Origin: a virus
Strand: one strand, 5' to 3'
Length of the DNA: 24,696 bases
IMG/VR virus record: IMGVR_UViG_3300025652_000517
Location: 1-24,696 of that record
Shown one piece after another: positions 1,776 through 20,242 of this stretch; position 1 is the first letter of the stretch, and every line of letters starts with the position of its first letter. Position numbers and translations under genes: made by a program. Below the pieces are notes generated by a model. It was not told the DNA's origin, did not search any database, and saw only the letters and a program-made list of their open reading frames with translations.

Positions 1776-2973
1776 ACAAATACTGGGGTTTTGCCTTAGT
1801 GCTGACTTCTTTTCTAGTGTAGCTAACATTGTCAATCGTGACATGTTTACACGCGAGATGCGTGACGTGTTTGACACGATAAGCTATTCACACACACAGT
1901 ATGCCACTGACATTACGTCGGGTGAGTTGTCTGTTTTGTTTAATGACCGCAATCCTGCTATGCCTGACAGCACACGGGAAAAGGCACAAGAACTGATAAC
2001 AACCCTTGATCGTGGCAACCCTGACAATACGGACATGCACCTAGACATGGTGCGTAACTTTTGGTTGCGTGATCGTGCGCGGGTTATTGGGGAGAAGGCC
2101 ATCGAAATCTTTACGGGTGAAAGTGAAGAGTTTGGTGAGTTGCGTTCACTGATTGAGACTGTAGAAGACGGACGCATCAGTGACAAAACTACCTATACAA
2201 AGGTAGAAGCTGGCATAAGCGAACTGTTAGACAGTCACACGGGGGCAAAGGATTTCCCTTTTGAGTTTGATCTAATCAAAGAACGGGTGGATGGTTTAGA
2301 TCGTGGTAACTTAGGCATACTGTTTGCCCGTCCCGAAGTGGGAAAGACTACCTTCTGTTGTTTTCTTGCCGCGTCTTACATTAGACAAGGCTTCAAGGTT
2401 ACCTATTGGGCTAACGAAGAACCAGCAGAAAAAATAAAATTACGCATCATACAAAGCTATTTTGGTTTGAAGCGTGAAGAACTGGTAGAACAACGTAACA
2501 CACTGCCTATACGGTATGACAATGAGATAGCACCGCTGTTAACAGTCATGGACTCTGTGGGTACATCTATGGAAGAAGCCAATGAGTACGCCAAACTGAA
2601 CAAGCCTGACATAATGTTTATGGATCAGCTTGATAAGTTTCGTGTTGCGGGCGAGTACAACCGTGGAGATGAACGCCTAAAAGAAACGTACGTTCTTGCC
2701 CGTGAGATAGCCAAGCGTAACAACCTGTTGGTGTGGGCTGTTAGCCAAGCAAGTAACGACGCACATGACCGTCAGTTTATTGACTACTCAATGATGGACA
2801 ACTCCAAAACAGGTAAAGCTGGTGAGGCTGACATTATTATAGGCATAGGCAAGACGGGTGCCAGTGACGTAGAAAACATCGTGCGTCATGTGTGTGTGTC
2901 AAAGAACAAGCTGAACGGTTGGCATGGTACAATCAACACACAGATAGATATACAGCGAGGGGTGTACTACTGA
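1744..2973 (+). CDS. Replicative DNA helicase, DnaB/gp4 family
   Basis: The 409-aa protein is a hexameric-type 5'-3' helicase. Residues 1-110 look like a DnaB N-terminal helical domain (opening MTSYDPTSIDKQILGFCLSA). A RecA-like motor follows, with Walker A ARPEVGKT at 195-202, an Asn/Glu after strand 2 (WANEEP, 222-227), Walker B IMFMDQLD at 290-297 and a sensor-like WAVSQAS at 331-337. It overlaps the primase gene by 32 bases, so the two are probably translationally coupled and may act as a split equivalent of T7 gp4. The ATG at 1744 follows AAGGACG. Length and motif order are normal for the family. Confidence 0.92.
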   Translation: MTSYDPTSIDKQILGFCLSADFFSSVANIVNRDMFTREMRDVFDTISYSHTQYATDITSGELSVLFNDRNPAMPDSTREKAQELITTLDRGNPDNTDMHLDMVRNFWLRDRARVIGEKAIEIFTGESEEFGELRSLIETVEDGRISDKTTYTKVEAGISELLDSHTGAKDFPFEFDLIKERVDGLDRGNLGILFARPEVGKTTFCCFLAASYIRQGFKVTYWANEEPAEKIKLRIIQSYFGLKREELVEQRNTLPIRYDNEIAPLLTVMDSVGTSMEEANEYAKLNKPDIMFMDQLDKFRVAGEYNRGDERLKETYVLAREIAKRNNLLVWAVSQASNDAHDRQFIDYSMMDNSKTGKAGEADIIIGIGKTGASDVENIVRHVCVSKNKLNGWHGTINTQIDIQRGVYY

Positions 2974-3218
2974 TGAATCGCAGGGCTAGGCGTCGGCATT
3001 GGCTTGGTAAGTACAAGGTACACAAGGGCTGTTGTGTTTGTGGATACAAAGATCATGCAGTGGCGTTACACTTTGACCACATAGAGCCAAAAATCAAAAG
3101 AGCCGCTATAGCACACATGATGGCGTACTCACTCAAAGCTTTGACTAAAGAAATAAGAAAGTGTAGAGTGTTGTGTGCTAACTGTCACTACGTTAAGACT
3201 GATAGAGGAAGACGATGA
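2973..3218 (+). CDS. Small HNH endonuclease
   Basis: The 81-aa protein is an HNH nuclease of the zinc-ribbon-bearing type. The zinc pairs are C21-x2-C24 and C68-x2-C71, and the catalytic core has D35-H36 in HFDHIEP, then N70 and H72 in CANCH. The N-terminus is very basic (MNRRARRRHW), which suits DNA binding. I chose the ATG at 2973 (TGATG overlap with the helicase stop, GAGGGG upstream) over the ATG at 2892 inside the helicase. It may be a free-standing homing-type nuclease or a phage DNA-processing enzyme, and its place inside the replication operon does not decide between them. Confidence 0.85.
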   Translation: MNRRARRRHWLGKYKVHKGCCVCGYKDHAVALHFDHIEPKIKRAAIAHMMAYSLKALTKEIRKCRVLCANCHYVKTDRGRR

Positions 3219-3364
3219 GCAATCACTACAACGAAGAAATACTAGAGCGTCTGTACGACGAAGAATACCAACGACTCAAAGACAAGTACCCACACATAGG
3301 TGGTGAGTCGTTGGCTGTACTGGCACGGTACTTTGCAAAGAAAAGATTTGAGGAGATGGAATAA
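3215..3364 (+). CDS. Small 49-aa charged helical protein, unknown function
   Basis: The ATG at 3215 overlaps the HNH stop (ATGA), and the TAA at 3362-3364 overlaps the next ATG (TAATG). It therefore fits exactly between two genes, which is strong evidence that it is translated. AGAGGAAG lies just upstream. The product begins MSNHYNEEILERLYDEEYQR and is mostly Glu/Lys/Arg-rich helix. No motif is recognised. It is below the usual length cutoff for gene calling. Confidence 0.65.
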   Translation: MSNHYNEEILERLYDEEYQRLKDKYPHIGGESLAVLARYFAKKRFEEME

Positions 3365-3822
3365 TGTCTGAATCTATGTACACAATGGAAGACATACCCC
3401 AACTTAAAGTGCGTTTAAGAGAAGCTAGAAAACACGCAAAAGAAGAACGGGATAGGGACACAGTAAATAATTGGGGTGAAAGAGAATCAAGTAGATTAAG
3501 CAAGCTTATAGCTTTAATTGAGCATCGTCTTAACATAGAAGACTATGGTAGTGGTACAGTTCTTATAAACGAAAAGTTTGTGGTTAGCCTTATCTCTCCC
3601 AAGTGGAGAGTAAAAGGGAAATCTATTTGGTATAATCACAAGCATGACATAAAGCATTTTGTACACAACTACTTGTTGAAAGAAGAATTTCAGAGTATAC
3701 CTACACCTGAGCAAGAGTTAGACTACTTTGAGGCACGACTAAAAAAATTACTCCAACAAAAACCTGCTTGGCTTATCAGGGAAATACGTGAGGCACTAGG
3801 CAATGAACGTACTGACATTTGA
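3364..3822 (+). CDS. Hypothetical 152-aa protein
   Basis: The ATG at 3364 follows GAGGAG at 8 bases and shares bases with the preceding stop. The N-terminal 60 residues form a charged helical, possibly coiled-coil region (RLREARKHAKEERDRD). A more beta-like middle follows (TVLINEKFVVSLISPKWRV), then a Lys/Glu-rich helical end. There are no cysteines, membrane segments or catalytic motifs that I recognise. It overlaps the exonuclease gene by 20 bases and so is co-translated with the polymerase genes. A role in replication is plausible from position only. Confidence 0.7.
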   Translation: MSESMYTMEDIPQLKVRLREARKHAKEERDRDTVNNWGERESSRLSKLIALIEHRLNIEDYGSGTVLINEKFVVSLISPKWRVKGKSIWYNHKHDIKHFVHNYLLKEEFQSIPTPEQELDYFEARLKKLLQQKPAWLIREIREALGNERTDI

Positions 3823-4384
3823 CGTAGAAACAACACACCTACACAAACCCAACGGTGGTACTACTGCACTGCCTTACTTTGGTAATCGTTTGGTTTCAAT
3901 AGGTTACAAGTGGCTAGATGAAACCCAAGTATTCTACGACTGCTACTACCACGAGACTGAACCACCTTCACCCAACGCCGCAGAAGATTTTCAGACTTCA
4001 CTTAACTACGCAGATGTGGTAGTAGGACAAAACATAAAGTTTGATTTGTCGTGGATACGTGACTGCGGCTTTACCTACACAGGAGAAATCTATGATACTA
4101 TGGTTGCAGAGTATGTTCTATCGAAAGCGCGGAGATGGCCTCTTGGACTTGCTTCTCTTGCAAAAAAGTATGACACAGTGCAAAAAGAGAAAGACCTCGT
4201 TGAGCCGTTTATGGCGAGTGGGAAAACCTTTTACGAAATACCGTGGGAGATAGTAAAAGAGTACGGTGTAGCTGACGTGCTGGCTACAGAACAGATAGCA
4301 CTAAAACAACTAGATGCCTTTGGCATAACATTTGAGGATATATACAATGAACGACTTGGTACCGACACTCAAGCTGTCGCTTGA
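3803..4384 (+). CDS. 3'-5' exonuclease (proofreading subunit of a split family A DNA polymerase)
   Basis: The 193-aa protein is a DEDDy-type exonuclease. Exo I is FDVETT (D7, E9), Exo II is GQNIKFD (N77, D81) and Exo III is YGVAD (Y154, D158). It matches the N-terminal exonuclease domain of T7-like PolA enzymes, but ends at a TGA shortly after the last motif. The polymerase domain is encoded by a second gene in a different frame that begins 38 bases before this stop. All catalytic residues are present, so it should be active and probably works in trans with the polymerase. A sequencing or natural frameshift in an ancestral fused gene is the main alternative. Confidence 0.88.
   Translation: MNVLTFDVETTHLHKPNGGTTALPYFGNRLVSIGYKWLDETQVFYDCYYHETEPPSPNAAEDFQTSLNYADVVVGQNIKFDLSWIRDCGFTYTGEIYDTMVAEYVLSKARRWPLGLASLAKKYDTVQKEKDLVEPFMASGKTFYEIPWEIVKEYGVADVLATEQIALKQLDAFGITFEDIYNERLGTDTQAVA
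4335..4349 (+). promoter_or_regulatory. Ribosome-binding site that decides the polymerase start
   Basis: GAGGA, 8 bases before the ATG at 4347, lies inside the exonuclease gene. It supports independent initiation of the polymerase gene rather than expression only as a frameshift fusion. The TTG at 4332, 15 bases further up in the same frame, has no comparable signal. Confidence 0.6.
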
Positions 4385-5882
4385 AATGACAGACACACTG
4401 TCCCGTATTGAACGCAACGGGATACGTATTAATCTAGACACACTAGATCAAATTGAAAAGCTATACCAAGATGAACTGGACGCATTAGAGTTACGCTTGA
4501 ATGACATGGCGCGGAGTGCAATGGGTGACACACCTATTAGCTTGACTAGCCCTGACGACAGGTCAATGCTGTTGTACTCACGTAAGGTGCGTGACAAAAA
4601 GTCGTGGTCATCTATCTTTAACTTGGGCATGGAGCAACGGGGTGCAACCATGAAGCCAAAGCAACGCACCCGCATGTCAGCAAAAGACTTTCGCATCAGT
4701 GTACGATCTAATACAGACGTGGTGTACAAAACAGTGGGTAGTCAGTGTACAAGTTGTTTAGGTAGTGGGCGTGTTCGTCCCGCACGTAAGGACGGTACAC
4801 CCAGCAAAGCACTGCGTATATGTAAAACATGTGGCGGCAAGGGTGTGTTGTACATGCCCACGTCACAGGTGGCAGGGTTCAAGATTGTACCACGCAACGT
4901 AAGGGACGTGGCATCTGCTGGATTTAAAACAGACAAAGATACACTGGCTGATCGTGAACTAGAACTGTCGGGTGATGCCCGTGAGTTTGCCAGTGCGTAC
5001 GTACGATACAATGCTTTGCGTATGTACTTGGGTACATTTGTAGAAGGAATGAAAAACAATGTCGATGACTACGGTTTCATACATCCAGAATTTATGCAGT
5101 GTGTTACGGCGACGGGTCGCCTTTCGAGCCGCAATCCTAACTTTCAAAATATGCCACGAGGTAACACATTTGAAATACGGAAGGTTGTGGAAAGCCGTTT
5201 CGACAAAGGTAAGATTGTTGAAGGTGACTATTCGCAACTGGAATTCAGAGTAGCTGGCTTCTTGGGTAAAGACCAACAAGCTTACTCCGACGTGGAAGCT
5301 GGCACAGATGTGCATAGCTACACTGCCAGCGTGATTGGTTGTTCTAGACAAGAAGCAAAGGCACACACCTTTAAGCCCTTGTATGGTGGCACTAGCGGCA
5401 CAGAGGCGCAACAACGCTACTACAAGGCGTTCAAAGAGAAGTATGGTGGGGTTACCCTCTGGCACGATGACCTGCAACGAGAGGCCGTAGAAAAGCGCGT
5501 AATCACCCTACCGTCTGGAAGACAGTACGCTTTCCCTGATGCACGGTGGACAAAGTACGGTACGGCTACACACCGCACAAATATCTGTAACTATCCTGTG
5601 CAGGGATTTGCAACGGCTGATCTGTTGCCCGCCGCACTGGTCAGACTAGACAAACTGTTTCAAGAAAATAAATTAAAATCTGTAATCTGCAACACAGTAC
5701 ACGATTCAATCGTACTGGATATGCACCCAGATGAAAAAGACATCTGCATCAAGTTGATGCGGGAAGCTATGCTCTCTTTGCCTGAAGAGACACAACGTCG
5801 ATATGGCGTCACCTACGACATGCCTGTCGAAATTGAAATAAAAATAGGCGATAATTGGCTTGACTTACATGTTGTAAGTTAG
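4347..5882 (+). CDS. DNA polymerase, family A, polymerase part with a DnaJ-like zinc insert
   Basis: The 511-aa protein carries the polymerase motifs of the Pol I family. A conserved TGRLSSRNPNFQNMP precedes motif A, GDYSQLEFR (catalytic D294). Motif B is R334-x3-K338-x7-Y346-G347, and motif C is VHDS (H452, D453). Between the thumb-like N-terminus and the palm lies an insert with two DnaJ-type zinc motifs, C134-x2-C137-x-G-x-G and C159-x2-C162-x-G-x-G. A central DnaJ-like domain in PolA is the reported peculiarity of HMO-2011-type marine podoviruses. Here the exonuclease is a separate upstream gene. The ATG at 4347 is chosen because of its GAGGA signal. Confidence 0.93.
   Translation: MNDLVPTLKLSLEMTDTLSRIERNGIRINLDTLDQIEKLYQDELDALELRLNDMARSAMGDTPISLTSPDDRSMLLYSRKVRDKKSWSSIFNLGMEQRGATMKPKQRTRMSAKDFRISVRSNTDVVYKTVGSQCTSCLGSGRVRPARKDGTPSKALRICKTCGGKGVLYMPTSQVAGFKIVPRNVRDVASAGFKTDKDTLADRELELSGDAREFASAYVRYNALRMYLGTFVEGMKNNVDDYGFIHPEFMQCVTATGRLSSRNPNFQNMPRGNTFEIRKVVESRFDKGKIVEGDYSQLEFRVAGFLGKDQQAYSDVEAGTDVHSYTASVIGCSRQEAKAHTFKPLYGGTSGTEAQQRYYKAFKEKYGGVTLWHDDLQREAVEKRVITLPSGRQYAFPDARWTKYGTATHRTNICNYPVQGFATADLLPAALVRLDKLFQENKLKSVICNTVHDSIVLDMHPDEKDICIKLMREAMLSLPEETQRRYGVTYDMPVEIEIKIGDNWLDLHVVS
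4746..4844 (+). other. DnaJ-like double zinc motif within the DNA polymerase
   Basis: Two CxxCxGxG units (CTSCLGSG and CKTCGGKG) lie 17 residues apart, separated by a basic linker. DnaJ proteins have four such repeats, which bind two zinc ions. Two repeats here could bind one zinc ion. The insert is not part of the standard polymerase fold. Confidence 0.85.
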
Positions 5883-5927
5883 TAATATCTATCTACAACC
5901 CTACTACGAAAAGGAGATCATAGGATC

Positions 5928-6800
5928 ATGGCAGGGACAGAAATCATGGAAATGAATAACGAACTAGACAATATGGTTGCCGCTTTATCAGGCGATAACA
6001 TAGAAGAAATGATGAAGCTAACGGGTCAAGGTGGTGTCACCAACGAACGTGTGGGTCTTCCTCGTTTGAATATCAACTACGATCAGGAAACCGACGATGG
6101 TAACAACCTGACTCGTGGTGACTGGAAGATGTATGTAGATGGACGCTTTGTTTACGCAAAGGAAGTCAAGCTACGTGCGTTACTTCGGATGTATGAGTAC
6201 AGCATGTGGGATCAAGAAGCTAACGAAGGTAAGGGTGGCTTCTCTTGTAAGTCAGTCCAAAAGAATTCCTTTGGCGGTATGTTCCCTGACACGCAAGGCG
6301 GCAACAAGTGTGGTCGTTTGACTCGTGACGAAGAAGATGCAATGGATAAAGATGACATTCGTTATCTGAACTCCCGTGCGGTAGTGTGTAACCAAGTCAT
6401 CTACGGACGCATTAGCGGATCGTTTGTTGAAGGTGATGGTACTCCTGTAGAGATTGTTGATGAGCCAGTGGTCGCTTACTTCAAGCGGTCAGGGTTCAAG
6501 CCTATCTCTGACTTCATCCAAAGCTTGACTAAGCAAAACAAGCTGATGCCACATACTAATATTCTGTTGCGGACTAACAAACAAAAGAAGGGCAGTGTGA
6601 CCTACTGGACACCTATGCCTACGTTTGATAGCACAGTCCAGCTTACTTCAGAGGATCGTGAACTGATGGGAACGTTTGCCGAAACCATCAAAGGTCATAA
6701 CGAAAACGTTATGAAGAGTAACCGTGAAGCACTGAAACTTATTTCAGACGATGGTGATCTAGACCTTGCGGCGGACTTTGCTGATGCTGACGCTGCTTAA
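5928..6800 (+). CDS. Probable single-stranded DNA-binding protein
   Basis: The 290-aa protein has the layout expected of a replication SSB: a central region rich in aromatic and basic residues (for example YKFVYAKEVK-like segments near 65-80, VTYWTPMPTF near 225) and a long acidic tail ending DLDLAADFADADAA. Acidic tails of this kind in T7 gp2.5 and bacterial SSB recruit polymerase and helicase. It sits directly after the polymerase and before the nucleases, where T7-like phages often place gp2.5. Its ribosome-binding site, AAGGAGAT 9 bases before the ATG, is the strongest in the window, which fits a protein needed in quantity. No sequence motif proves the assignment. Confidence 0.6.
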   Translation: MAGTEIMEMNNELDNMVAALSGDNIEEMMKLTGQGGVTNERVGLPRLNINYDQETDDGNNLTRGDWKMYVDGRFVYAKEVKLRALLRMYEYSMWDQEANEGKGGFSCKSVQKNSFGGMFPDTQGGNKCGRLTRDEEDAMDKDDIRYLNSRAVVCNQVIYGRISGSFVEGDGTPVEIVDEPVVAYFKRSGFKPISDFIQSLTKQNKLMPHTNILLRTNKQKKGSVTYWTPMPTFDSTVQLTSEDRELMGTFAETIKGHNENVMKSNREALKLISDDGDLDLAADFADADAA

Positions 6801-9090: not shown

Positions 9091-9332
9091 GGCACGAGCA
9101 GTACATGAAAGAGAAAGCAGACAATGTCAACAACCCGCCACACTACAATAAAGCAGGTATTGAGTGCATTGAAGCAATCGCGGCGGCGACAGGCGATGGG
9201 TTCCAATACTACCTGCAAGGAAACATTATCAAGTACCTCTGGCGATACCGATACAAAAACGGAAACGAAGACCTTAAAAAAGCCCAGTGGTACCTAAACA
9301 GATTGATAGAAGAGAGAGATACAAATGAATAA
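9087..9332 (+). CDS. DUF3310 protein (T7 gp1.7-like nucleotide kinase family)
   Basis: The 81-aa protein has the DUF3310 hallmarks: NPPHY (16-20), then GNIIKYLWRYRYKNGN (45-60) and EDLKKAQWYLNRLI (61-74). From memory, the same core occurs in T7 gp1.7, which phosphorylates dTMP and dGMP. This protein is shorter than gp1.7, so kinase activity is not assured. It is joined by ATGA to the MazG gene and overlaps the reductase gene by 8 bases, which supports a role in nucleotide supply. Confidence 0.82.
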   Translation: MRHEQYMKEKADNVNNPPHYNKAGIECIEAIAAATGDGFQYYLQGNIIKYLWRYRYKNGNEDLKKAQWYLNRLIEERDTNE

Positions 9333-11253
9333 TTCACTACCAACACCATACCAAGAGTTTATCCACAAGTCACGTTACGCCCGTTGGAAAGAAGACCAAC
9401 AACGCCGCGAGAACTGGGGCGAGACAGTAGCAAGATACTTTGACTACATGCAGGAGCATCTAAAGAACAACCACGCCTACACCCTTCCTAGCACGTTGCG
9501 TAACGAACTAGAGAACGCGGTGCTGGGACTAGAGGTCATGCCATCTATGCGGGCTATGATGACTTCGGGTGATGCCCTAGACCGTGACAACGTGTGTGGC
9601 TACAACTGTTCGTACATCCCTGTTGACAGCCCCCGTTCGTTCGATGAGTGCATGTACATTCTTATGTGTGGTACAGGTGTGGGCTTCTCTGTTGAGCGTG
9701 AGAACGTAGATAAGTTACCCACCATTTCAGACAACTTCCACGATTCAGACACTGTCATCAAAGTCGGTGACAGCAAGCCCGGATGGGCAAAGGCTTACCG
9801 TGAGTTGATTGCGTTGTTGTATGCTGGGCAGGTACCACAGATAGATGTGTCTGTTGTACGTCCTGCTGGTGAACGCCTCAAGATAATGGGTGGACGTGCA
9901 TCAGGGCCGCAACCGCTGGTCGAACTGTTTAACTTCACTATTGAAACATTTAAAAAGGCACGGGGACGCAAGCTGTTTCCTATAGAATGCCACGACTTGA
10001 TGTGTAAGGTAGGCGAGATTGTAGTCGTGGGCGGCGTACGTCGTAGCGCACTGATTAGCCTGTCTAACTTGAACGATGACCAGATGGCACACGCTAAGTC
10101 AGGTATGTGGTGGGAGAACGAACCGCAACGTGCGTTGGCTAACAACTCTGTAGCCTACAAAGGTAAACCAGAGATGGGTACGTTTATGCGTGAGTGGGTG
10201 TCCCTGTACGAATCTAAGTCAGGTGAGCGTGGTATATTTAATCGTCAAGCTGCTGACATACAGGTAGGTCGCAACGAACGCCGTGAGCAAGGTCACATGT
10301 GGGGAACTAACCCGTGTTCGGAGATAGTGCTACGCCCATACCAATTTTGTAATTTGTCAGAGGTGGTAGTGCGTGAATCAGACAGCTTAGACTCACTTAA
10401 ACGTAAGGTGCGTCTGTCTACTATACTAGGCACGTTCCAGTCTACGCTGACCAACTTCAAGTACCTGCGTAACATCTGGAAAAAGAACACAGAAGAAGAG
10501 CGTCTGCTGGGTGTGTCACTGACAGGCATCATGGATCATGCCGTGTTGTCAAAGAATGTGGACAGCAAAAGATGGCTAGAGGATATGAAGAACGAAGCTG
10601 TCAAGGTAAACAAGAAATACGCAGAAGTGCTGGGCGTACCACAGTCTGCGGCTATCACCTGTGTGAAGCCTAGTGGTACTGTGTCTCAACTTGTCGATGC
10701 CGCCAGTGGTATCCACGCTCGTCACAATCCACACTACATACGTACAGTACGTGGGGATAACAAAGACCCGTTGACACAGTTCCTTATTGATTCGGGTGTG
10801 CCAGCAGAGCGTGACGTGATGAAGCCTGACTCAACAACCGTGTTTAGCTTCCCAATGGAATCACCAAAGGGTGCAGTCACACGCACTGAAATGACAGCCA
10901 TAGAACAGCTAGAGTTGTGGAAGACCTATGCCCTGCACTGGTGTGAACACAAGCCATCCATCACTGTGTCTGTAAAAGAAGAAGAGTGGATGGAAGTGGG
11001 TGCGTGGGTGTACGAAAACTTTGATGTGGCATCCGGTGTGTCCTTTTTGCCATTCAGTGACCACACGTACCAACAGGCACCATACCAAGACATAGAGCCT
11101 GATGACTACCTAGAGTGGAAGGAAAGGATGACGTACGTTAACATTGACTGGTCACGCCTTACTGACTTTGAAAAAGAGGACAACACCACAGGTTCGCGGG
11201 AACTGGCGTGTACTGCAGGTGTGTGTGAAGTGGTTGACCTCAATGCCGCCTAA
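9325..11253 (+). CDS. Class II (adenosylcobalamin-dependent) ribonucleotide reductase
   Basis: The 642-aa protein reduces ribonucleotides to deoxyribonucleotides for phage DNA synthesis. The active-site loop NPCSEI gives the thiyl-radical Cys331 and Glu333. The reducing pair is an N-terminal Cys (C91 in VCGYNC, C95 nearby) and C342. The 11-residue spacing of C331 to C342 equals that of C408/C419 in the Lactobacillus leichmannii monomeric enzyme. The C-terminal shuttle pair is C629-x4-C634. No separate radical-generating small subunit is nearby, in line with a monomeric B12-dependent enzyme. It needs host cobalamin and a thioredoxin, and no thioredoxin gene is in the window. Confidence 0.92.
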   Translation: MNNSLPTPYQEFIHKSRYARWKEDQQRRENWGETVARYFDYMQEHLKNNHAYTLPSTLRNELENAVLGLEVMPSMRAMMTSGDALDRDNVCGYNCSYIPVDSPRSFDECMYILMCGTGVGFSVERENVDKLPTISDNFHDSDTVIKVGDSKPGWAKAYRELIALLYAGQVPQIDVSVVRPAGERLKIMGGRASGPQPLVELFNFTIETFKKARGRKLFPIECHDLMCKVGEIVVVGGVRRSALISLSNLNDDQMAHAKSGMWWENEPQRALANNSVAYKGKPEMGTFMREWVSLYESKSGERGIFNRQAADIQVGRNERREQGHMWGTNPCSEIVLRPYQFCNLSEVVVRESDSLDSLKRKVRLSTILGTFQSTLTNFKYLRNIWKKNTEEERLLGVSLTGIMDHAVLSKNVDSKRWLEDMKNEAVKVNKKYAEVLGVPQSAAITCVKPSGTVSQLVDAASGIHARHNPHYIRTVRGDNKDPLTQFLIDSGVPAERDVMKPDSTTVFSFPMESPKGAVTRTEMTAIEQLELWKTYALHWCEHKPSITVSVKEEEWMEVGAWVYENFDVASGVSFLPFSDHTYQQAPYQDIEPDDYLEWKERMTYVNIDWSRLTDFEKEDNTTGSRELACTAGVCEVVDLNAA

Positions 11254-12547: not shown

Positions 12548-15500
12548 TTATTTAAACGGGGTTTTAACAGTATTTATGTCTCGTTTCCTTTTTGGAATTA
12601 GGCTTTTAACAAAGGAACCTACTCCTTTACTTAATTCTACGTTTGATACCCCGCCGGGATTTACTACTATATCTCTACCAATTTCGTCTTTTAATTTTCT
12701 TTCTTCTAGTAAAAGAGCCGCGTCAGAACTGGAAGCAGCTAAAGAATTTGTAAATGCACGTAAAAACAAAGTTTCCTTTTCTGGACTAAAAGGTTTTCCT
12801 GTTCTTATCATCTCCAAAAATAAAGTACCAAACTCAGGATCAAGCATAGCACCCTTTAGCATGTTGTATCTTCTAATTCGTGACTGTTGAATCATGGATT
12901 CTGATGCCAGCCAACGTAATCCAATTGCGTTTCTTTGCCAAGCGTATATTCTACTTACATAAGACTCTACGCTCAACGCTCGTGGCACACCTTGAATAGC
13001 AGTTTTTGCCACCGTAGAAGCATCAAGTTCTGTAATTACTTTAGCTGCAGATTCCCAGACTGTAAATCTTTCATCGCCTATAAGTTCCTTTACAATGCCT
13101 TGTTTTGTAGTGTTGTTTAATCCCAACATTTCATTCAAAACATCTAAATTAACTGCAAATTCCTGCGACAATGTATCTACGTCAGTTATGTTCATCTTTC
13201 TTCCATTAGGGAACACCTTGCTCATCATGGAATCTAGATATACGTTAGCAAGAACACCACTTATTTGGTCATCGGTTAGTTTTGTGTTGTTCTTTAATTC
13301 CTGTCGTAACTCCTGAACAACTAAAGAACCACTGTCTGTAATGGTACCCGCTATAGCTTCGTTGGATAGTTTCTTTCCAGTGTAAGATTCTAAAAACTTA
13401 ACAGCCAGTTTTTTACTTTCTAACCTTTGTACAGCAGGTTTTATTGCACCACCAATGGCAACTTCCAAATCTTTTTCCGCTGTTTTTACTACGTCGTCGT
13501 ACGTGGCTTGTCCTATGGACTTTGCATTGAACGCTTGAACGTCATCTAAAACCTTGCCTACAGAAATCATGGGAACGTCCGTTCCATCTGCTGACTTCAT
13601 GGTAAATATTCTAGACAAGTTGTCTAGTTCTTTAAACGCTTGTCCGGGAATTAGACTGCTCTTTTGCCCCACAATATGTTCTGAAACAGCGGCAGAAAGT
13701 ATTGATCTAAACGCTTCGGTGGTAGTCTCACCTTCTATAAAGGCATACGTTACAACAGAAGGATCAGGGTCACTTCCTTGTACCTTTGTACCCAAAACTC
13801 TAGCTAGATTGTTGTAAAAAGCTTTACCTTCTGTTTGTGAATCCATATTTACTAAGGAGCGTATGTTTAACCACGTCTTTGGATCACCATTTCTGTACGT
13901 TATGTTAAGCGGCACGTTAGTTGCAACTTCTGAACTGGTGTCTCTTTTACCCCAACTCATCCACTTTGGTATTACGCTACCCTTGTCATGCCACTTATTT
14001 TTGTATTCTCCCCATCCTTGATTTGCTTTATTTAAGACATCAGGTACAGACTCTAACATTCCGTCTGTATCTTTTATGAAAAGGGTTTGTGCGGGAAGAA
14101 CACTACCATCTGCAGTCTCTATAGAAAACTGTCCCATTTTACTTGATAATATTGCGCTTACAGTTTTTAAAGTTTTAGCATCTTCTCCATCAATTTTGTA
14201 AGACAATTCAGTTACTGCCCTGTCAAACTCACGCATTTGATTTAAAGACACGTTTAACATACTGTTTAACATAGTTGCTTCAGGAGTATCAGAAGAGTTA
14301 GCTGCTTCTCTAAGGTATCGTATAACTTGAACAGTTTGGCTTTCTTCTTTGTTAAATAATTTACCGCTATTTTTAAAAGATTTAACCAGCCCTTTAACTA
14401 CATCTTCTACAGAATCACCTTCGTCGGCTAAAGCCAAAAAGAATGGTTCTGCTAACTCTTCAAAGATAGCTTCATTAGCTGATCTTTGTCCTTTTGACAT
14501 GCCTGATTTTGCTAGTTGGCGTGACTTTATTACACCTGCTTCTTGCACAGTAAACAACGCATCAAACGCATCACCTATGTTTACAGTAGCCATACCAGAT
14601 GTTACAGGGCTTCCATCTTCCAAGAAAAATTTAGCGGGCTTTGATGGTGTACCTAGTCTGTAGTATGCTTGTTGGGCTATTGCCTTTTGGCTTCCATGTG
14701 ACGCTTCTAAAATCGTAGCCAGTAGTTCTCCTGTTGATTCTATAGAAGATATAAGGACAGGCTGAGAAGCACCCTGTGCTAAAATACCACCCGGATATTG
14801 GGTATCGCTGAAGTCTTTTATTTTTATTTTAGCTGAATCTAGATTGCCTAGTTCTTTAATAACATTTTTAGAAACTTTGTTTACTACTTTTGCAACTTCG
14901 TCAACGACTTTGTTTGCAAGCATTTCAAATTCTGCTTTAGGAAGACCACTTGAAGTAAGTAGATTTTGATCTTGTAAGTTTCTTACGGCTATGTCCACAG
15001 TCTGTTTACTTCTTCCTCCCAAACTTTGTGCCTCTACAAAGGAAAGATTTTGACGTAATTTATCTAATTGAGATGTCACACCATCGGTGTTAATTATGCC
15101 AATCAACTCTGTAAGTTCATCTACACTAGCTTGCCCACCTGTTACAGCTTCTGCAATCATGCCGTAGAACTCATCGTACTGCGCTACTTTAGGTGCGCTA
15201 GGGTCAGGTGCTTGCAAATTAAATAGCACACCACGTAGTGCTTCTATTGTGCGGGTTTTTGCCATCACTACTGTTTGTAGCACTTCAAGGGATTTTTGAT
15301 CCGTTGCCATAGCACCAACACTCATGGTTGCCCGTGTTATATCTTCTAAACCTTGCAGACCTACTAAGTTACTAAGATTCGCAACGCTCATGGATATAGT
15401 GCCTTCATCCAAACCTGCTTTAATCAGGGGTTCAAACGCATTTGATACGTAGTCACCTCGTGCTTGCATAGTTGCTTGCATTTCTGGAGAATATTTACTT

Positions 15501-17536
15501 ATGTGTTTTGCTAAAAACTTTCTGTACCTATCTTTGCCCCCTGCACCCGGAACAGACTTAAACAAAAGCTTACCCACGTCAGAACCCATCACTCTAAAAT
15601 AGGCGGGATTAGATACAGTACGAAGGACATCAAACATTATGCCTCCCCCCAATCCTATAAGTTCACCCATGTAGGTGCTATTCATTACTGAACCATCTTG
15701 ACTGTCTGTCATCTGGAACATGTGTCCTGTAAGACCCATACCCAATACAATAGCACTGTCTGTTCTTTTTACATCCCTAATCCACAGGGGCGTAGCAGAT
15801 CGTACTTCTATAGCTTGTAACTCTGTAGTTGCTTCTGATAGGTCTTTCTTAATTGCTTTAAGAAGTTGTCTATCTTTTATTGTACCAGTCCCGTTTGCTA
15901 TGCGTGTTTCTGCACCTTTTTGTCTATTTTTTAAACGATCCATGTACTTTTTCTGGGCTATGACTTCTGCCCTCTGTAACACAGGATTAGACGCATCCCT
16001 GCTTTGCATGGCTCTGTTAAGTTTTACTTGGGTGCGTAAAGGTCCGAATCTTATTCTTTGGAATATTGACGGGTCTATCTGATCGTCTGTTTCCTCAATC
16101 AAACCAGTCTTTTTGTTAAAGCGTATTTGGGGACGAAGACTAACAAACTTTTTTAAGCTTTCTTCTACTGACCTAGAGGTACCTTCGCTTAATTCTTTAG
16201 CAAAAAACGCATCAAATAGTTGTAATTCTTTTTTGTTAGTAAGTCCGGCTTTGATAACCAAAGCCCTAGAAAAAGGCAACACTTGGGATGCTATGTTTAA
16301 AATGCGAGGTCCTGCTCCTGTGAACGTGTTCATGTACTCTTCTGCTGCTGGAAGGGATATTTCAAATCCTTTTTGTGCCATTGTTGCTATAAACATGTCC
16401 GTAGCTTCAGGCCAAGCATCAGAAAGAATTGATTGACGACGCACACTACTTCTAATATCCCAATATCCTGATTCGTCAGAAGACTCAGCCATTGCCAAGT
16501 TAAAAACTGATAGAACTGAGTCTGTGACTTCTCCTGCACCCCACAACAACATTTGAATGGGGAATCTAACGTTGCCTTCAACGGCGGATTTTTGAATCTT
16601 TTCAAAGTCACCCATTGATATAGAATTTTGTGCGTGTTTTACAACTCCAAGAATTGTGCGAGGATCAGTAACTCCCACTGAATTAAGACGCTTTTTAAGT
16701 ATTTGTGCGTACACAGGAAATGCTTGTTCTTGGTCCAGCATAGATAAAGAAATCAAACTGTTCTTGTTCACCCAAGTTTCTTTTTCTTCAGTAGTCAGGT
16801 CTGACCATTTTACTCTTGACCTAGTTATATCTGAAGTGGAGAACACTCGCAGTTGCTTGGCAAACTCGTCTGTGCTATCTTCTTGTTTTGCTATTGTTAA
16901 TTCAAAATCAGGTACTGTTGTTTCTTTAAGTAGGTACCCGTCCCAATCAAAATCAACTTGAGTGCCACCCTCTGAAACAATACTAACAGCACCAAAGTTG
17001 TTAGCCGCGTTAATGCGCGACATATAATTATCTGGCAACTGGCTAAAGGGAAGGTATTGTCCCTTTGAGTTATACACGCCTTGTGAATTTGCAAAAGCGG
17101 CCTTTGCTTCTGCAGTGTCTAGACTAAAGGGTATGGTTTCCCCAGACGAACCAATCAGATTGTCTACATCTTGTATAAATACATTAGTCTTAATTAGTGA
17201 CGGGTCTTTTACTTTTGCTTTTACATTCTTTTTAATTGCAAAATCAACAATAGGAACAGGAGCAAGTTCCTCCCCGTACTCCTCAATCAATTCAGGGGCT
17301 GGAGATTTAAATACCCCCTTTCCACCACTAGGTTCTAAAGCGGGAAACTTATCTACAGGTTCAGCAGGTACAGTCGTAGAAGGGTAGACTCCCTCGCCTA
17401 CTGTGCGATCACGCGCAGCAGCTTGGTCTGTGTCCAATTTACTGATTTGGTTTTCCCTGTTAGCTTGTGCTTCAAGGTCAGCAGCCCGCTTTTCATCCAT
17501 ACGATTTTGCATGATTGTCTGTAGGTTTTCAGCCAT
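12548..17536 (-). CDS. Very large (1662 aa) probable internal virion/ejection protein
   Basis: This is the largest gene in the window. Its N-terminus (MAENLQTIMQNRMDEKRAAD) is a charged helix, then comes a Pro-rich acidic linker to about residue 90. The body is mostly predicted helix, with moderately hydrophobic stretches near 325-350 and 595-645 (IVLGMGLTGHMF, IGLGGGIMFDVL). The C-terminus is basic (SLIPKRKRDINTVKTPFK). No lysozyme, transglycosylase or protease motif is visible. Size and place at the end of the virion operon, after the 899-aa gene, match T7 gp16 and related ejection proteins, but this is by position and size, not by motif. It is preceded by a 6-base gap and an AGGAAG signal inside the upstream gene. 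Confidence 0.6.
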   Translation of the reverse strand: MAENLQTIMQNRMDEKRAADLEAQANRENQISKLDTDQAAARDRTVGEGVYPSTTVPAEPVDKFPALEPSGGKGVFKSPAPELIEEYGEELAPVPIVDFAIKKNVKAKVKDPSLIKTNVFIQDVDNLIGSSGETIPFSLDTAEAKAAFANSQGVYNSKGQYLPFSQLPDNYMSRINAANNFGAVSIVSEGGTQVDFDWDGYLLKETTVPDFELTIAKQEDSTDEFAKQLRVFSTSDITRSRVKWSDLTTEEKETWVNKNSLISLSMLDQEQAFPVYAQILKKRLNSVGVTDPRTILGVVKHAQNSISMGDFEKIQKSAVEGNVRFPIQMLLWGAGEVTDSVLSVFNLAMAESSDESGYWDIRSSVRRQSILSDAWPEATDMFIATMAQKGFEISLPAAEEYMNTFTGAGPRILNIASQVLPFSRALVIKAGLTNKKELQLFDAFFAKELSEGTSRSVEESLKKFVSLRPQIRFNKKTGLIEETDDQIDPSIFQRIRFGPLRTQVKLNRAMQSRDASNPVLQRAEVIAQKKYMDRLKNRQKGAETRIANGTGTIKDRQLLKAIKKDLSEATTELQAIEVRSATPLWIRDVKRTDSAIVLGMGLTGHMFQMTDSQDGSVMNSTYMGELIGLGGGIMFDVLRTVSNPAYFRVMGSDVGKLLFKSVPGAGGKDRYRKFLAKHISKYSPEMQATMQARGDYVSNAFEPLIKAGLDEGTISMSVANLSNLVGLQGLEDITRATMSVGAMATDQKSLEVLQTVVMAKTRTIEALRGVLFNLQAPDPSAPKVAQYDEFYGMIAEAVTGGQASVDELTELIGIINTDGVTSQLDKLRQNLSFVEAQSLGGRSKQTVDIAVRNLQDQNLLTSSGLPKAEFEMLANKVVDEVAKVVNKVSKNVIKELGNLDSAKIKIKDFSDTQYPGGILAQGASQPVLISSIESTGELLATILEASHGSQKAIAQQAYYRLGTPSKPAKFFLEDGSPVTSGMATVNIGDAFDALFTVQEAGVIKSRQLAKSGMSKGQRSANEAIFEELAEPFFLALADEGDSVEDVVKGLVKSFKNSGKLFNKEESQTVQVIRYLREAANSSDTPEATMLNSMLNVSLNQMREFDRAVTELSYKIDGEDAKTLKTVSAILSSKMGQFSIETADGSVLPAQTLFIKDTDGMLESVPDVLNKANQGWGEYKNKWHDKGSVIPKWMSWGKRDTSSEVATNVPLNITYRNGDPKTWLNIRSLVNMDSQTEGKAFYNNLARVLGTKVQGSDPDPSVVTYAFIEGETTTEAFRSILSAAVSEHIVGQKSSLIPGQAFKELDNLSRIFTMKSADGTDVPMISVGKVLDDVQAFNAKSIGQATYDDVVKTAEKDLEVAIGGAIKPAVQRLESKKLAVKFLESYTGKKLSNEAIAGTITDSGSLVVQELRQELKNNTKLTDDQISGVLANVYLDSMMSKVFPNGRKMNITDVDTLSQEFAVNLDVLNEMLGLNNTTKQGIVKELIGDERFTVWESAAKVITELDASTVAKTAIQGVPRALSVESYVSRIYAWQRNAIGLRWLASESMIQQSRIRRYNMLKGAMLDPEFGTLFLEMIRTGKPFSPEKETLFLRAFTNSLAASSSDAALLLEERKLKDEIGRDIVVNPGGVSNVELSKGVGSFVKSLIPKRKRDINTVKTPFK

Positions 17537-17542
17537 AAAGGT

Positions 17543-20242
17543 CTACTTTCTTCCTAAGATATTGTTTACGTCTTCTTTTGTAGTTTGCCCAGATTGAATA
17601 AGTTGTTCTACGGTAGTTATTGTTGGTTCATTAGGATTACCTGTACCCAGACCCAAATCAAATGGCTTTGCAAATCCCAAGTTAGTTCTGTTGGCTACTA
17701 TGGCATTAAAGTCATCAACACTGTATGGGGCATCTACTGATGGGGATTTACCCTCGTCATCATCTAATGAAAGACCTGATCCCATATCAACACCCGCCGC
17801 TTCCGCAGCTTCAACCATACTAAGTTGTGCGTTTGCACCGGGCAACGATAGTAGTTTTAAAGTTGAAGTGGCTACGTGACCACCCCCTGCTATATTTTCA
17901 GCAATCATAATCTGTTGTCGAACTTGTTTTTGTATGTTTATAAGAACAGCTTCTTCAATTGCAGGATTTGCAATAAACTTGTTGTTGTTAAACGCTTTTA
18001 AGAAGTTAAGAACGTCTTGGTCAGAAATAGTACGACCACCTGTTCCACCTTGTGTAGCACTTGCTAAAGAGTACGCAGTCATAAATCTATAGTAACCACG
18101 CATAGCGTACTTTAATGTTTCTTCGTCACCTTCTGCTTTTGCTGTAATTTCCTTTTGAAACATTGCCTCAAGTTCTGCTCTAGCTTCTTTTTCTTTGGCT
18201 GTAAATTGTTCAAGGGGTACACCTCGTCGTTTAGCTTCTATCCTTTGTTCATCTAAAGACAAGTCAGAAAAGCTAGTAAATGTCCTATTGTCCCCGAATA
18301 CGGATGAAGTCAACTTGTTTCCTAAGTCAGTTCTATCAACAACTTTTTTGGCACCCGGCAATAAGTTTTTAAACATTGGCGATACGTATTCGTCAATCAT
18401 AAACAAAGCACCATCTTTTAGTTGGTAAAGTTCACCAACTCTACTGGCAGCTAACAATTCACCGCTACTGTTGCGGTAAGTAGCAATAAATCCTGTCAAA
18501 TTTTGGTCGGCACTTGTAAATGCTACTGCTTCTGCTCTTTTTTGTTCTTGAAAAGAAACAAAAGATGATTGGTTTTTTAGCATTGTACCAGCGTACATAA
18601 GAGAAGCAGCATTATTTCCCGATATGGTAGGGGTCATCATCATTATAAGGTCTACTTTAGAGTCAAAGTTTTCAGCCGATGATGCACCATCTCGCTCGTA
18701 CATAGCAACAAAATCACCAGCTACTTTTGCTTGGGCTTGATCGTAGGTGGTAGTCGTTGTTTCAAACGCACTTTGTAACACACTAAAAAACGTTCGATCA
18801 GTATTCGCTACCTTATTATCCATAAGGTATTTAATAAAATCTGCTTTAGGTTGATTTTCTGCTACATCCGATAAGTCGGGGGTATACACGTAAACTTTGT
18901 TTTGTATAAAACTGTTTGTTTTGTTTGGATCAACACCTTGCGTAGATTCCAGCGCGGCTGCAAATGCGTTAAGAGGCTTTGTGTGTATTGGTTTTTCAGG
19001 AGTAACAACACTTGCTTTGTCTGCGGTAGTATTAAGCGCAACTTTTTCTTCGTCTGCTATGGGTGTTATTGCATTTCTAGTGTTAAATCCATTTTCGGCG
19101 TTTTTATTTGTTTGCGAAACAATTTGTTTTGTTTTCATTAGACTTAACGATTGTCTAACAGCGTTTGATAAATCGGGAATAACAGCAAACAATGTCGGAT
19201 AATTTGCCTGTAAAAAATCCGGTGTATCAGTCTGCAAAGGCAGTACAACAGTGCTTACGCCAGTTTCTTTACTTACATTTGTATTTGATTCAGCTATGGA
19301 AGAAGCAATGGAACGTATAACAGCCTCTTGCTGATTTAGCGGAACCATGCTCCTAAAGTTATCCGTACTTTTTATGTCACTACCTCTTAGTAGAATCGCT
19401 AACTGATCTAACTCATCTTGTTTAGTTGTTTTGTTGTCAGCAAATACTTTAATACCGGGGCCTACTTTGAGGGGTATTTTAAGTACAGGGGGAACATCTG
19501 CCTCTTTAGCAGCACGGAGTGCGCTAGTTAAGGGTGTAATATTAACAGATGTTTTTTTACCACCCTTTTCGTCTGTAGAAGTTGTAGTAATTACCCTGCT
19601 TATACTGGGATTTAAACCTGCTTCTTCTAATAGTTTTTTTATATTTGGGTCATTTAACGCTTGCGCTGCTTCTACTTCGGTGCCATAGCTAACATCCCCT
19701 ACGGGGATTTTAAAGGTAACAGAATCTTTGCTAATAGCAGGGGTAACATCATCCTTTGGGAACACCCTGTCTAAGATGTCCTTGTCATAAAAAAAGTTTT
19801 TATTTGAAGTGGTATCATAATTTCCAACCTGTTTAAATTCTTTTGCGGCCTCTACATCTTCAGGCAATTCTTTGACTACATTTCCGGCTGCGTTCATATA
19901 TATAGGAGCAAATTTTCCTGCGGATGCTACTGGTGTTATTGGCCCCGTAGTTCCAATTTTTCTGTGCGTATCCTGCCAGTTTCTACCCGCCTCATCTGTA
20001 TCAGGATTAAAGGCTCTAAGAGGACTTGTAGCATCCCCTGCTTCATTAATAGAAGTGCCAAAGTTAAACACTGTGTTAGCATCGCTAATATTTTGTTGAC
20101 GTACAACTTCAGCATCAGAAAGCCTTTGTGTGCGTTCACGGTCTTTATCCTCAAGCTGTTGTCTGCGAACCTCTTTAGCATTCTGGGCATCCTTTTTTGA
20201 CTTAAAGGATTTGGAGGCAGCGTATATCAGTAGTGGCAGCAT
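17543..20242 (-). CDS. Large (899 aa) probable internal virion protein
   Basis: The protein starts with a short hydrophobic stretch (MLPLLIYAAS) followed by a highly charged coiled coil to about residue 55 (KEVRRQQLEDKDRERTQRL). The rest is Ala/Thr/Asn-rich and mainly helical, with no cysteine-based or catalytic motif that I recognise. GAGGAAAAG stands before the ATG at 20242. It lies between the 181-aa and 1662-aa genes, where T7-like phages place gp15. A similar size (T7 gp15 is 747 aa) supports the guess, but no sequence similarity can be claimed. Confidence 0.55.
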   Translation of the reverse strand: MLPLLIYAASKSFKSKKDAQNAKEVRRQQLEDKDRERTQRLSDAEVVRQQNISDANTVFNFGTSINEAGDATSPLRAFNPDTDEAGRNWQDTHRKIGTTGPITPVASAGKFAPIYMNAAGNVVKELPEDVEAAKEFKQVGNYDTTSNKNFFYDKDILDRVFPKDDVTPAISKDSVTFKIPVGDVSYGTEVEAAQALNDPNIKKLLEEAGLNPSISRVITTTSTDEKGGKKTSVNITPLTSALRAAKEADVPPVLKIPLKVGPGIKVFADNKTTKQDELDQLAILLRGSDIKSTDNFRSMVPLNQQEAVIRSIASSIAESNTNVSKETGVSTVVLPLQTDTPDFLQANYPTLFAVIPDLSNAVRQSLSLMKTKQIVSQTNKNAENGFNTRNAITPIADEEKVALNTTADKASVVTPEKPIHTKPLNAFAAALESTQGVDPNKTNSFIQNKVYVYTPDLSDVAENQPKADFIKYLMDNKVANTDRTFFSVLQSAFETTTTTYDQAQAKVAGDFVAMYERDGASSAENFDSKVDLIMMMTPTISGNNAASLMYAGTMLKNQSSFVSFQEQKRAEAVAFTSADQNLTGFIATYRNSSGELLAASRVGELYQLKDGALFMIDEYVSPMFKNLLPGAKKVVDRTDLGNKLTSSVFGDNRTFTSFSDLSLDEQRIEAKRRGVPLEQFTAKEKEARAELEAMFQKEITAKAEGDEETLKYAMRGYYRFMTAYSLASATQGGTGGRTISDQDVLNFLKAFNNNKFIANPAIEEAVLINIQKQVRQQIMIAENIAGGGHVATSTLKLLSLPGANAQLSMVEAAEAAGVDMGSGLSLDDDEGKSPSVDAPYSVDDFNAIVANRTNLGFAKPFDLGLGTGNPNEPTITTVEQLIQSGQTTKEDVNNILGRK

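Follow-up and report, generated by a model that had tools for sequence, protein, structure and literature searches.

The closest described systems are the HMO-2011-type phages (Puniceispirillum phage HMO-2011, pelagiphage HTVC033P and roseophages CRP-1, CRP-2, CRP-3 and CRP-235), whose isolates are the nearest named relatives of the sequence analysed here, a 24,696-base IMG/VR virus record that we call the window. A hallmark of this type is a partial DnaJ domain lying between the exonuclease and the polymerase within one polypeptide (PMC9038755, PMC6918029), and its polymerases range from 540 to 779 aa (PMC9038755). The isolates and the window have in common a family-A polymerase, a DEDDy exonuclease, a DnaJ-type zinc insert and a gene neighbourhood of primase, helicase, DNAP, two further genes and DUF3310. 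The window polymerase is 49% identical to that of HTVC033P and 38-43% identical to the others, and HTVC033P is collinear with the window in its replication genes and in two structural genes. The isolates, however, encode the enzyme in one gene of about 680-705 aa, whereas the window has two overlapping genes. Apart from DNAP, the hallmark genes of HMO-2011-type phages are those for the capsid and TerL, neither of which was identified within this 24.7 kb fragment.

Family-A polymerases made from two ORFs are already known. In the OM43 phages MEP401 and MEP402 (Zobellviridae), as in most genomes of their group, a marine phage family-A polymerase comes from two ORFs, as it does in the window (PMC10580990). 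In those phages it is the polymerase domain itself that is interrupted, a small ORF separates the two pieces, and an intron is suspected (PMC10580990); in the window the break is at the exonuclease-polymerase boundary, the genes overlap and nothing is inserted. Another break position is found in a related group, where the polymerase region of Vibrio phage ICP2_2013_A_Haiti is annotated as two adjacent CDS (1766-2965 and 2975-3859; 399 and 294 aa) with the TGTGRLSS motif on one side of the break and motif A on the other. YuA, considered as a candidate precedent, gave no support.

Exonuclease-subunit families are known as well. PHROG 403 and 192 are both named 'DNA polymerase exonuclease subunit', and window protein P0001 matches PHROG 403 at 1.9e-12, a comparison made with the family profiles, which are longer (321 and 397 positions for the two families). 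P0001 scores better still against a DNA polymerase family, PHROG 17, its top PHROG match (3.5e-25). In bacterial Pol III, a separate proofreading subunit, epsilon (DnaQ), works with the polymerase subunit alpha, an arrangement that is standard for that enzyme. The epsilon fold is similar to that of the window exonuclease, but Pol III joins a family C polymerase to a DEDDh exonuclease and the window has a family A polymerase with a DEDDy exonuclease (Y154 is invariant). We found no report of a gene split at the exonuclease-polymerase boundary in HMO-2011-type phages among the open-access papers searched.

Exonuclease and polymerase in two reading frames

A preliminary description of the window had placed a proofreading exonuclease and a polymerase in two overlapping frames, and we recovered this layout in every particular. 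Both genes are on the plus strand. The gene for the 3'-5' DEDDy exonuclease (exo) occupies 3803-4384 and encodes 193 aa, and the gene for a family-A DNA polymerase lacking an exonuclease domain (pol) runs from an ATG at 4347 to 5882 and encodes 511 aa. The frames are +1 apart and overlap by 38 nt counting the exo stop (4347-4384), a dual-coding stretch that specifies the Pol N-terminus in one frame and the Exo C-terminal tail and TGA stop in the other. The Shine-Dalgarno (SD) core of pol, GAGGA, lies within the exo coding sequence at 4334-4338, 8 nt 5' of the pol ATG.

The catalytic residues are divided between the frames as the preliminary description had proposed. The DEDDy signature (D-x-E, D and Y-x3-D) is complete in the exo frame as D7, E9, D81, Y154 and D158, all invariant in 146/146 exonucleases. 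The pol frame holds motif A (D294), motif B (R334, K338, F342) and motif C (H452, D453), including the catalytic Asp residues of a family-A DNA polymerase. In Pfam, DNA_pol_A_exo1 (PF01612) matches the exo product only (3e-12) and DNA_pol_A (PF00476) the pol product only (4.5e-49). Alignment to Klenow takes in D81 and the Y154-D158 region of Exo and, for Pol (8e-27), motifs A to C. Eight checked residues of motifs A to C, together with four cysteines, are invariant in 144/144 polymerases. Median dN/dS between close relatives is 0.057 for pol, and 0.071 and 0.063 for two portions of exo that do not overlap pol. Comparison with relatives shows purifying selection on both proteins and intact active sites, and both products look functional.

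The four cysteines (Cys134, 137, 159 and 162 of Pol) belong to a DnaJ-type zinc insert at 4740-4850, whose two CXXCXGXG-type repeats, CTSCLGSG and CKTCGGKG, were absent from the preliminary description. The DnaJ central domain scores below the curated Pfam cut-off here (PF00684, 0.0024). The insert occupies the corresponding position in fused relatives, and its two repeats place the enzyme with the HMO-2011-type polymerases, where exonuclease and polymerase are likewise separated by a partial DnaJ domain bearing two CXXCXGXG motifs. Because the exonuclease on the one hand, and the insert and polymerase on the other, are not one polypeptide here (193 aa and 511 aa, in two frames), we file the window enzyme as a derived split relative rather than a standard member of the type.

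Distribution and ancestry of the split

IMG/VR was scanned with the window polymerase, the window exonuclease and a 67%-identical relative as queries. All 230 loci with both domains, the window itself among them, are split with the identical +1 offset. The 230 include many near-duplicates, reducing to 146 unique exo-pol pairs and to 67 at <90% nucleotide identity, and some contigs are counted twice under different locus ids. The recurrence of the split across 230/230 relatives with both domains is far beyond chance. Among the groups sampled, fused genes were found only in the more distant ones. Scans with fused relatives as queries returned 256 contigs from four other groups, every one of them fused: 80/80 HTVC033P-like, 80/80 HMO-2011-like, 16/16 CRP-235-like and 80/80 L429-like. 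The polymerase genes of four isolates are likewise open in one frame, as are those of 7/7 MAG contigs. A scan of bacterial genomes for hosts gave fused copies on marine MAG contigs as its best matches and yielded no host information.

The polymerase tree comprised 69 sequences: one outgroup and the 68 that were left after dereplication at 85% identity. Split sequences form a single clade (SH-aLRT 100), so that one change suffices on this tree; the comparison shows a single origin. Split and fused polymerases are at most 52.6% identical, and the lowest identity within the split clade is 62.7%. The likely direction of change is fission of a fused ancestor rather than fusion, a polarity that falls short of proof because the root of the tree rests on a very distant, long outgroup. 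Extra modular exchange of the exonuclease was considered and rejected: the correlation between exo and pol distances is weak, but just as weak in the fused groups.

Proposed association of the two products

We think it probable that the window encodes a fissioned replicative PolA of the HMO-2011 type, a family-A enzyme whose separately translated proofreading subunit re-associates without a covalent link. One ancestral gene for exonuclease, zinc insert and polymerase would have been broken once, at the exonuclease-polymerase linker, and the two overlapping genes would have been maintained ever after. A single mRNA would then support two translations: Exo would be made from 3803, where its gene has a separate start, and Pol from the internal SD and ATG (4334-4347), which presumably serve as its start in vivo. 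Since these signals precede the exo stop, the two products would be translationally linked. Exo and Pol would most likely join non-covalently and be arranged as in Klenow, Exo serving as a separable subunit for proofreading.

Structure models are consistent with this reading. AlphaFold2 modelled Exo alone with a mean pLDDT of 87.6 and a pTM of 0.85; the tail overprinted on the pol gene (residues about 182-193) is predicted to be disordered (pLDDT 40-54). Foldseek placed Klenow at the top of its matches to the Exo model, with Pol III epsilon in fifth place. To stand in for the complex, and solely for folding, we translated the window sequence straight across the junction by introducing a single four-base step (protein P0007). 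AlphaFold gave this proxy a mean pLDDT of 93.4 and a pTM of 0.88, with the lowest block (pLDDT 69) at residues 171-180, adjoining the split. The proxy aligns to the Klenow fragment 1kfd as a single body over model residues 1-689 (Z 32.7, 505 residues, 3.0 Å) and to Bst polymerase with Z up to 34.0. As one chain with a linker, folded from an alignment that includes fused relatives, it is biased to the fused arrangement and does not establish that unlinked chains bind; nor do the conserved adjacency of the genes and their conserved active sites amount to proof of association. Read in this way, the modelling shows that the two products could fit together as a Klenow-like complex, and it makes plausible the two-subunit PolA that we infer.

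The same models bear on the possibility that both genes are real and the exonuclease has an independent role, in DNA turnover or repair for instance, leaving the polymerase to replicate without proofreading. Separate translation would permit this, the Exo model is confident without Pol, and it resembles stand-alone DEDD exonucleases in addition to Klenow. We nevertheless consider a solitary role improbable: the genes are adjacent and overlapping in 230/230 loci, the best fold matches of Exo are the exonuclease domains of polymerases, and the read-through proxy docks in Klenow-like fashion with high pTM.

If the products do form a two-subunit PolA, the phage may be able to tune proofreading separately, as the preliminary description proposed. 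A stronger version, which we offer tentatively and regard as rather doubtful, is that this is an obligate two-subunit family-A polymerase of a widespread marine lineage, in which a non-stoichiometric proofreading subunit sets the mutation rate through the subunit ratio. Such an arrangement is not known to have been described for family-A replicases.

A polymerase that is generally studied as a single piece comes naturally in two in this lineage of uncultured marine phages. Family A here offers a natural and conserved case in which proofreading is separate from polymerisation, so that the long-standing question of how the two sites cooperate can be put to the test by combining two proteins rather than by mutating a single one. 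A published survey of HMO-2011-type polymerases required a coverage of 80% or more and a length of >540 aa (PMC9038755). At 511 aa, or 75% of the 680 of HMO-2011, the window polymerase would be expected to fail these filters. Length-filtered surveys of this abundant marine polymerase probably miss the whole split lineage.

The junction and its surroundings

Initiation signals for pol are conserved across 100 distinct junctions, in counts that, like those for exo termination below, treat sequences without regard to shared ancestry. An SD core (GAGGA, GAGGAG, AAGGA or AAGGAG) lies 7-8 nt 5' of the start in 99/100, and the start codon is ATG in 86, GTG in 11 and TTG in 3. The SD spans two exo codons, and AGG(A) is kept in 145/145 readable sequences, through the codon pairs GAG-GAN (134), AAG-GAR (7) and GAA-GGA (4). 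GAG makes up merely 53% of Glu codons, yet the SD bases are constant; the amino acid varies and the SD does not.

Termination of exo is similarly constrained. The overlap measures 35, 38, 41, 44, 62 or 68 nt, each length leaving a remainder of 2 on division by 3, with indels in multiples of three, and exo ends in TGA in every junction. The first T of this TGA is the third base of a pol codon, and that base is T in all cases, although CTT accounts for 24% of Leu codons and TTT for 49% of Phe codons. Synonymous constraint reaches 2.9-3.7-fold in the final codons of exo and 1.9-fold in codons 6-20 of pol; the corresponding linker of the HTVC033P group, whose gene is fused, shows about 1.0-1.2-fold. 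These patterns indicate that the initiation and termination signals are under selection at the DNA level. The preliminary description had preferred a genuine split, with a separate start of translation for pol, to an error, and that judgement is borne out: the close relatives are all split, and the SD, start and exo stop are conserved at the DNA level. Neither of the two refutations it had named, an indel error or relatives that are all fused, agrees with the relatives compared here.

The conserved start also weighs on a second possibility, namely that ribosomes undergo a programmed +1 frameshift within the overlap, shifted translation giving a fused, Klenow-like polymerase and unshifted translation giving free Exo. 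The offset is +1 without exception, as such a mechanism would have it, and CTT TGA, the slippery codon pair of bacterial prfB, ends 6 of the 100 distinct junctions. Frameshifting would not need the conserved SD and start, however. The last sense codon varies (GCT in 67/100), one subgroup has its stop displaced by some 27 nt, and the junctions have no X XXY YYZ heptamer or other conserved slippery site. The variable codon before the stop, the moved stop and the absence of a heptamer make programmed frameshifting quite unlikely, although, given the six CTT TGA junctions, frameshifting may still occur at a low level.

A sequencing or assembly indel in an ordinary fused gene can be dismissed as having almost no chance of being correct, for all that isolates of the wider group are fused and such errors do occur, because an indel error would not recur across 230/230 loci and 100 different junctions, four other contigs carry the exact window junction, and the SD and stop are conserved at the DNA level. 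One contig of the split clade, IMGVR_UViG_3300030101_001006 (L032 and L121), has a frame break inside pol, where the match ends near residue 55 and restarts near residue 59 in the adjoining piece; this looks like an assembly error unconnected with the conserved split.

Several other explanations for the junction were rejected. Conserved RNA structure is not indicated, the unpaired probability from SD to start being 0.49 vs 0.45 at other ATGs. As an internal promoter, the sigma-70-like match at 4320-4348 can be set aside: such matches are about as frequent as chance predicts (5 found against 4.7 expected), and transcription from this one would begin beyond the pol ATG. An intron or intein was rejected since the genes overlap with nothing inserted between them, and Rfam gave no match over 3300-6000 with E up to 1. 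Shortly 5' of the SD, the synonymous sites of GCC TTT GGC (4314-4326, exo codons 172-174) are almost fixed; the small hairpin that these codons could form is no better than background.

A second constrained tract lies further inside exo, at 4133-4200 (about codons 111-131), near TGGCCTCTTGGACTTGCTGCTCTTGCAGAAAAGTATG. Synonymous sites there are almost invariant in the split clade, with windows of up to 0.87 same-codon, 2.5-3.2-fold above expectation; at the corresponding place in two fused groups the excess is about 1.4-1.6-fold. Rfam returned no match for the tract. An overlapping gene at this position is ruled out by interruptions of the +1 frame in some relatives, and a small +1-frame gene within exo was rejected because it is interrupted in several.

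Upstream, between the helicase gene and exo, a free-standing HNH endonuclease gene (2892-3218) overlaps the end of the helicase gene. A similar HNH gene is found upstream in only part of the relatives' loci, which argues against a link to the split or to the conserved tract. On the minus strand, 12548-17536 and 17543-20242 encode proteins of 1662 and 899 aa that have no PHROG match; from their position they are probably virion proteins. The window also encodes, at 9325-11253, a ribonucleotide reductase with a B12-dependent (class II) insertion domain, and ribonucleotide reductase is often reported in HMO-2011-type phages.
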